This document shows positions 3,190 through 7,920 of a stretch of 64,000 nucleotides of DNA, in pieces. The notes beneath the pieces were generated by a model that was given only the letters and a program-made list of their open reading frames with translations, had not been told where the DNA came from and ran no database searches. This DNA is from Devosia sp. Root436. Its GTDB lineage: Bacteria > Pseudomonadota > Alphaproteobacteria > Rhizobiales > Devosiaceae. Location of the stretch: NCBI RefSeq assembly GCF_001426345.1, contig NZ_LMEM01000001.1:520264-584263 (forward strand), given 5' to 3'. The translations under genes were made by a program, and so were the position numbers. How positions within the stretch are numbered: position 1 is the stretch's first letter; each line of letters starts with the position of its first letter.

Positions 3190-3699
3190 TCAGAACGGAA
3201 TATCGTCGTCCATGCCGCCCGGCTCGAAGGCCGGGGCGCTGGGCCGTGGACGCTGTCCACCGCCACCGCCGCCATTGTTGTTGTCGCGCACGCCGCGGAA
3301 GCCGGTGTCGCCACCGCCATAGCCGCCGCCGGCACTATCGCCCTCGCCACGGCCATCGAGCAGGGTCATGTTCGAGTTGAAACCCTGTAGCACGATTTCG
3401 GTGCTGTACTTGTCCTGGCCGGACTGGTCCTGCCACTTGCGGGTCTGCAACTGGCCTTCGAGATAGACCTTGCTGCCCTTTTTCAGGTAGCTCTCGGCCA
3501 CGCGCGCCAGCCCTTCCGAGAAGATCACCACGCGGTGCCATTCGGTCTTTTCGCGGCGCTCGCCGGTATTCTTGTCTTTCCAGTTCTCGGAGGTGGCGAC
3601 GCTGAGATTGACCACCTTGCCGCCGCTGGGAAGGTTGCGCACCTCGGGATCGGCGCCGAGATTGCCGACCAGGATAACCTTGTTCACGCTGCCTGCCAT
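3190..3699 (-). CDS. ssb: Single-stranded DNA-binding protein
   Basis: A 169-residue SSB that coats single-stranded DNA in replication, repair and recombination. Residues 1-~112 form the OB fold ([41 protein letters not shown]), followed by a Gly/Asn-rich flexible linker and the acidic partner-binding tip DDDIPF that recruits repair proteins. It is the neighbour of uvrA, as in many proteobacteria, here with a LysE-type gene between them. Its 5' leader is long (about 200 nt to a promoter candidate), and that promoter carries a LexA box, so damage induction is expected. Confidence 0.97.
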
Positions 3700-3901
3700 G
3701 GCGAAATTCCTTTTCGATTCAGTCCCGGTCTGCCGTGGTCGCGGGACGCTTACTTACCGTTGCGCAAGCCTGCCCGCCCATGCGCGGGTCGTTTCCTGGG
3801 CCATGCTGGATAACCCACCATAATGCTTCCCCCGCCCGAACGCGCGGCCCAAGCCGATGTTTTGAACACCTAAGAAACGCCCGTCGCGGCCCGGTCGTTC
3901 C

Positions 3902-3931
3902 AATATATGTTCTTGTTATGTTCTATGTCAA
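3902..3931 (-). promoter_or_regulatory. ssb promoter with LexA (SOS) box
   Basis: On the minus strand TTGACA (3926-3931) and TATATT (3902-3907) are 18 nt apart, a good sigma-70-type promoter pointing at ssb. The spacer holds the direct repeat GTTC-N7-GTTC at 3909-3923, the LexA operator consensus of alphaproteobacteria. LexA bound there would block RNA polymerase. The 463-nt gap between ssb and the LysE gene otherwise holds only this promoter, the ssb leader and a palindromic repeat. Confidence 0.8.
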
Positions 3932-3975
3932 GCGGCGTGCCTTGTTGTTGGGGCCAGTTCATCAGTCCACCGAGC

Positions 3976-4084
3976 GTGGGCTCCCTCGCCCCTGAGGGGA
4001 GAGGGCGGGGTGAGGGGTTCAGGGCTGGTGAGAAGCACGACGCCGAACCCCTCACCCCGACCCTTCGGGTCGACCTACCCCGAC
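3976..4084. repeat. Palindromic intergenic repeat, CTCACCC family
   Basis: Perfect 15-bp inverted arms CGGGGTGAGGGGTTC (4006-4020) and GAACCCCTCACCCCG (4045-4059), flanked by smaller hairpins (CCCTC...GAGGG and GACCCTTCGGGTC). The same style of element occurs near 51.1 kb and 63.8 kb. It lies between the ssb promoter and the LysE gene. Confidence 0.75.
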
Positions 4085-4162
4085 AAAGATCCCCCCGCCC
4101 GCTCCTGACATGCCCTGTCAGCAGCCTTGCCCCAAAGCCACTTCCTCACTCGGAAACCCGTC

Positions 4163-4807
4163 ATGGACTACGCCCAGGCCCTCTGGCTCTATCTCATCCT
4201 GCTGTTCGGCATCATCGTCGTGCCCGGCATGGACATGTTCTTCGTCCTCGCCAATGCGCTGACGCGGGGCCGCCGCGCCGGGTTCGCCGCCGTCGCCGGC
4301 ATCATGCTGGGCGGCGCAGTGCATACGCTGTTCGGCGCGCTGGCGGTCGGCGTGCTCACCCAGCTACCTACCACGATCTTCCAGGCGATGATCCTGATCG
4401 GCGCCGCCTATATGGCGTGGATCGGCTATACCCTCTTACGCAGCACCATCACCGTGGACAGTATCGGCAGCGCCACGACCCGCTCGGACTGGGTCGCCTT
4501 CCGCCAGGGTCTCGTTACCTGCCTGCTCAATCCCAAGGCCTACCTCTTCGTCCTCGCCGTCTTCCCCCAGTTCATGCGGCCCGAATACGGCCCGATCTGG
4601 TCGCAGGCATTGATCATGGGGCTGATGACGGTGGCCATGCAATTGCTCATCTATGGCGGGCTGGCGCTGGCCGCCAGCAGGGGCCGCGACGCGCTGGTCG
4701 GCCATCCCGAAGTTACCGTCTGGATCGGTCGCGGCGCCTGCGCGTTATTCGTCGCGGCGGCTCTGTTCACCGCCTGGCACGGATTGACCCAGCATGTCGG
4801 CCCTTGA
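4163..4807 (+). CDS. LysE/RhtB-family amino-acid exporter
   Basis: A 214-residue inner-membrane protein with about six hydrophobic helices and the family signature VPGMDMFFVLANALTRGRRAG near residues 18-38, where the N-terminal helix meets the first loop. LysE/RhtB proteins export amino acids or their derivatives using the proton gradient; the substrate here is unknown. I chose the ATG at 4163 over the in-frame TTG at 4127 because it fits the family length of ~205-210 residues. Its stop codon overlaps the -35 candidate of the uvrA promoter. Confidence 0.85.
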   Translation: MDYAQALWLYLILLFGIIVVPGMDMFFVLANALTRGRRAGFAAVAGIMLGGAVHTLFGALAVGVLTQLPTTIFQAMILIGAAYMAWIGYTLLRSTITVDSIGSATTRSDWVAFRQGLVTCLLNPKAYLFVLAVFPQFMRPEYGPIWSQALIMGLMTVAMQLLIYGGLALAASRGRDALVGHPEVTVWIGRGACALFVAAALFTAWHGLTQHVGP

Positions 4808-4835
4808 CCGAATCTATATTGTTCCGCTTATGTTC
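4804..4835 (+). promoter_or_regulatory. uvrA promoter region with LexA (SOS) box
   Basis: A perfect GTTC-N7-GTTC direct repeat at 4821-4835 is the alphaproteobacterial LexA operator. A TTGACC hexamer (4804-4809) 18 nt before the weak -10 candidate TTATGT (4828-4833) would place the operator over the -10 region. It lies ~190 nt upstream of uvrA; the leader between them shows nothing else I recognise. Confidence 0.75.

Positions 4836-5022: not shown

Positions 5023-7920
<2,898 letters not shown>

Follow-up and report, generated by a model that had tools for sequence, protein, structure and literature searches.

Conserved direct repeats before ssb and uvrA in Devosia are predicted LexA operators

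The LexA motif of alphaproteobacteria is the direct repeat GTTC-N7-GTTC, and uvrA is part of the alphaproteobacterial core SOS regulon (PMC3323433). In Caulobacter, uvrA is induced by mitomycin and is a late SOS gene (PMC12700426). The ssb-uvrA pair of some Vibrio is split by an insertion, with each gene keeping its own LexA site (PMC3323433). A paradoxical result has been reported for Brucella abortus, where overexpression of lexA leads to further induction of uvrA rather than to a reduction (PMC6813329), and simple repression of uvrA should therefore not be assumed. Our literature search found no LexA study for the genus Devosia, in which we report here that ssb and uvrA are probably under SOS control.

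We analysed a 64-kb window (G000:C1:520264-584263) from a Devosia genome of 3.92 Mb in 16 contigs. Among the ssb matches with names, those with the highest scores all come from Devosia. The features needed here are as follows, with positions counted within the window except for lexA.

3190..3699, minus strand: ssb, single-stranded DNA-binding protein, 169 aa (TIGR00621, 166 bits, over the cut-off)
3902..3931, minus strand: predicted ssb promoter TTGACA-18-TATATT, 11/12 consensus matches
3909-3923, plus strand: predicted LexA box of ssb, GTTCTTGTTATGTTC, an exact GTTC-N7-GTTC, which equals GAAC-N7-GAAC on the ssb strand
4163..4807, plus strand: gene for a LysE/RhtB-type amino-acid exporter, between the two boxes (TIGR00949, 110.6 bits, E 7e-32, below the curated cut-off)
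4804..4809, plus strand: predicted uvrA -35 element TTGACC, 11 nt upstream of the box
4810..4814, plus strand: GAATC, a GANTC (CcrM-type) site immediately downstream of the uvrA -35 element
4821-4835, plus strand: predicted LexA box of uvrA, GTTCCGCTTATGTTC, an exact GTTC-N7-GTTC over the expected -10 element
5023..7920, plus strand: uvrA, excinuclease ABC subunit A, 965 aa (NF001503, 1593 bits against a cut-off of 1147)
G000:C1:249179-249886: lexA (equivalog, 178.9 bits)

The original prediction had placed exact GTTC-N7-GTTC repeats at 3909-3923 and 4821-4835 and had named the genes behind them as ssb and uvrA. Both repeats are indeed exact and located at these positions, they are the only two matches in the window, and the TIGR00621 and NF001503 scores confirm the identities of the two genes. 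We propose that both direct repeats are LexA operators of the standard alphaproteobacterial SOS regulon and control ssb and uvrA, a reading to which we assign a probability of about 0.93. It builds on the sites, their positions and conservation, and a genome that encodes lexA, recA and further SOS genes with boxes, all of which were observed directly; binding by LexA, repression, and induction of ssb and uvrA by damage are what we infer from them. At 3909-3923, bound LexA would lie between the -35 and -10 elements of the ssb promoter; at 4821-4835, it would cover the -10 element of the uvrA promoter. RNA polymerase would be blocked in both cases. Upon DNA damage, RecA-stimulated self-cleavage of LexA would free both promoters, and the levels of SSB and UvrA would rise.

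The prediction implied that a LexA of the alphaproteobacterial type is present. The genome does encode LexA, and the lexA gene has two GTTC-N7-GTTC boxes of its own (249912-249926 and 249937-249951, about 22 and 47 nt upstream). Further boxed genes are recA, an error-prone dnaE, ruvC, radA and a umuD-like gene, and judged from sequence the boxed gene set is an ordinary alphaproteobacterial SOS regulon. These boxed genes, the boxes of lexA itself and the conservation within Devosia support the predicted LexA control of ssb and uvrA. The exact sequence of the ssb box, GTTCttgttatGTTC, also serves as LexA box for two SOS genes of Caulobacter (PMC12700426). The umuD-like gene (G000:C9:684528-684983, L202; NF007621 over the cut-off) has the box GTTCGCTGTTTGTTC about 40 nt upstream; an identical copy of this box is found at G000:C4:15158-15172 (L026), beside a 200-aa open reading frame that has no NCBIfam match. 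Another LexA-like box, at G000:C14:154793-154807 (L212), is located 75 nt upstream of a gene for a PA0069-family radical SAM protein.

We compared the region upstream of uvrA with that of 40 further genomes of the genus, locating ssb, the lysE-type gene and uvrA in each. Together with the window this gave 41 loci, 39 of which (window included) had ssb in view. The box precedes ssb in all 39 loci with ssb and uvrA in view, and boxes are present before both genes in 38 of them; the uvrA box was found in 40/41 loci. The distance between ssb and uvrA varies widely (342-3387 nt). The gap is shorter than 520 nt and holds no lysE in 12 loci, and a lysE relative of at least 70% identity lies between the two genes in 21/39. 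Two boxes are thus found both with and without lysE, so the presence of this gene does not explain the second one. The comparison shows that separate predicted operators are kept before ssb and uvrA while the genes between them come and go. We hypothesize that ssb and uvrA are an old divergent pair; in this lineage the lysE-type gene sits between the two putative operators, and ssb and uvrA would each have kept their own. One locus (L161, from G062) has a uvrA of 98% identity, an ssb-uvrA gap of 626 nt and only a partial lysE match of 40% identity, possibly a remnant. Between the ssb box and lysE, the window also has an inverted repeat (4003-4062) with 18-nt arms that are 94% complementary, resembling a dispersed intergenic palindrome. 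A search for structured RNA in the long leaders gave no Rfam match.

Outside Devosia, both arrangements of the boxes occur. Divergent ssb-uvrA pairs with one shared box are found in, for example, Rhizobium (L064), Phyllobacterium (L111) and Oricola (L090), and divergent pairs with two boxes in Pelagibacterium (L060) and Kordiimonas (L065). In many Rhodobacteraceae loci, ssb is without a box and uvrA is not nearby.

The position of the ssb box in the window relative to its promoter is as predicted: the box lies wholly within the spacer of TTGACA-18-TATATT, which runs on the minus strand from 3931 to 3902 and is the sole promoter-like site detected in the segment 3650-5050. This geometry is not typical of the genus. 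In 34/39 loci, 12-17 nt separate the end of a TTGAC hexamer from the box, a distance at which the -10 element falls in the box, whereas in the window and three other loci (4/39) this distance is 2-3 nt, and the -10 element lies just beyond the box. The four loci with the box in the spacer are not all adjacent on a tree built from about 800 nt of coding sequence, a scatter that may reflect promoter exchange or repeated change. The window further contains a GANTC at 3716-3720, some 20 nt before the start codon of ssb. A GANTC at a similar distance from the start is present in only about ten close relatives; elsewhere among the relatives the ssb -35 element itself reads TTGACTC, which is also a GANTC.

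For uvrA, the box had been thought to cover the likely -10 element. The -10 hexamer itself is poor, and the support comes from the spacing: across the genus, uvrA promoters follow the pattern TTGAC-N11..13-box with a nearly constant distance, which places the -10 element inside the box at a spacing of 17-19 nt.

Two other explanations of the boxes were weighed against control of ssb and uvrA by LexA. The original prediction held that two exact boxes were improbable by chance, which does not apply to their bare number: shuffled windows contained 1.01 matches on average, and two or more turned up in 24 of 100. The whole genome matches GTTC-N7-GTTC 101 times and the reversed pattern 53 times, so that background would account for about half of the 101. 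The count is therefore uninformative by itself and would not exclude chance matches that have no role for LexA. What convinces us is position together with genus-wide conservation, and in this respect the argument stands. The boxes precede two classical SOS genes, and we estimate from the shuffle rate that two named genes would each have a chance match in the roughly 250 nt upstream of them with a probability of the order of 1e-5. Both boxes are kept despite large changes of the DNA between them, and the uvrA box stays at its nearly fixed distance from the -35 element. On the strength of this conservation we rejected chance matches, which we consider hardly credible as an origin of both boxes. 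The other explanation concerns the box at 3909 only, which in the window is also upstream of the lysE-type gene, 240 nt away on the plus strand, and might control that gene in addition to or instead of ssb. However, the 12 short-gap genomes that have no lysE between ssb and uvrA still have the box before ssb, as do genomes with other intervening DNA, and the promoter that matches the box reads toward ssb. The box stays with ssb where lysE is absent, and we judge LexA control of lysE to be very unlikely.

The arrangement of ssb and uvrA with their predicted LexA operators is ordinary for its class, and the conserved GANTC beside the uvrA box is the only unusual detail. The window contains only 96 GANTC sites where 263 would be expected, so the motif is strongly avoided. 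Nevertheless, it directly follows the uvrA -35 element in 51 of 63 promoters of the genus, as GAATC in 45 and GACTC in 6; these promoters were found by pattern, one per genome, and tallied by hand. A GAATT, which is not a GANTC, occurs naturally in relatives. In a set of 46 promoters placed on a tree, the site is present in 34. On this tree the G, A, T and C of the site change 6, 4, 6 and 5 times, the N position 11 times, and the next spacer columns 12, 22, 22 and 16 times; that the GTTC of the box never changes is merely a consequence of the search pattern, which required it. Although the numbers are small, the column changes fit what is predicted for a constrained GANTC with a degenerate middle base. 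We also considered the motif TTGACNGANTC as a general Devosia promoter motif and rejected it, since it is not enriched genome-wide (13 occurrences, 22 for the control); the GANTC after the uvrA -35 element is thus not merely a general promoter feature. The genome encodes GcrA (PF07750, 176.7 bits) and a putative CcrM-type methylase (PF18755, 69.3 bits), the latter identified by its RAMA domain only. GcrA peaks at uvrA and lexA have been found by ChIP in B. abortus (PMC6813329), and the ssb gene of Caulobacter, which carries a conserved GANTC, is a candidate direct target of activation through CcrM methylation (PMC3973325).

These observations suggest an additional layer, in which LexA acts at the box and GcrA and CcrM act at the GANTC, tying uvrA to both the replication cycle and damage; LexA at the box could also impede methylation of the GANTC 6 nt away. 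Such a layer would add to the explanation by LexA and not replace it. Joint control of uvrA by LexA and methylation is plausible but unproven, with a partial precedent in Brucella. Several findings speak against it. Presence of the GANTC changes about eight times on the tree. Outside Devosia the site is missing from nearly all boxed uvrA promoters, with one Pelagibacterium and scattered cases as exceptions, and we rejected an alphaproteobacteria-wide GANTC at this promoter. Conservation of GANTC at SOS genes of Caulobacter and Brevundimonas has been ascribed to overlap with the LexA box, without a clear regulatory effect (PMC7987155), an explanation to be set against the fact that the site at 4810-4814 does not overlap the core of the uvrA box. 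Furthermore, induction of lexA by methyl methanesulfonate (MMS) is GcrA-independent in B. abortus (PMC6813329), and the methylase is known here from its RAMA domain alone. On balance we regard the additional layer as a tentative possibility, with the odds somewhat against it. We speculate, with still more doubt, that the uvrA promoter is a composite switch, in which a CcrM-methylated GANTC would let GcrA drive basal, cell-cycle-timed expression, while LexA, 6 nt downstream, would repress and might control methylation. If so, the methylation state of the GANTC would record LexA occupancy.

The predicted LexA control of ssb and uvrA in Devosia closely resembles the LexA regulon of Caulobacter and Rhodobacter, with the same GTTC-N7-GTTC operator, the same class of target genes, and a lexA with boxes of its own. 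Nothing fundamental sets it apart; the ssb operator of the window is located in the promoter spacer, as in only a minority of Devosia loci. The conserved GANTC in the sigma-70-like promoter of a DNA-repair gene is shared with promoters controlled by GcrA and CcrM, but at uvrA the site abuts the -35 element, lies outside the LexA core, and has a putative regulatory role. As in E. coli and Vibrio, ssb and uvrA form a divergent pair under LexA, which is a prediction in the case of Devosia. The LexA motif of these organisms is CTGT-N8-ACAG and not GTTC-N7-GTTC, and a further difference is that Devosia has two boxes even where the gap is short. The intervening DNA is a phage in the split Vibrio pair and a lysE-type gene in the window, and given that the split Vibrio genes have separate LexA sites (PMC3323433), the Devosia architecture is of a known kind.
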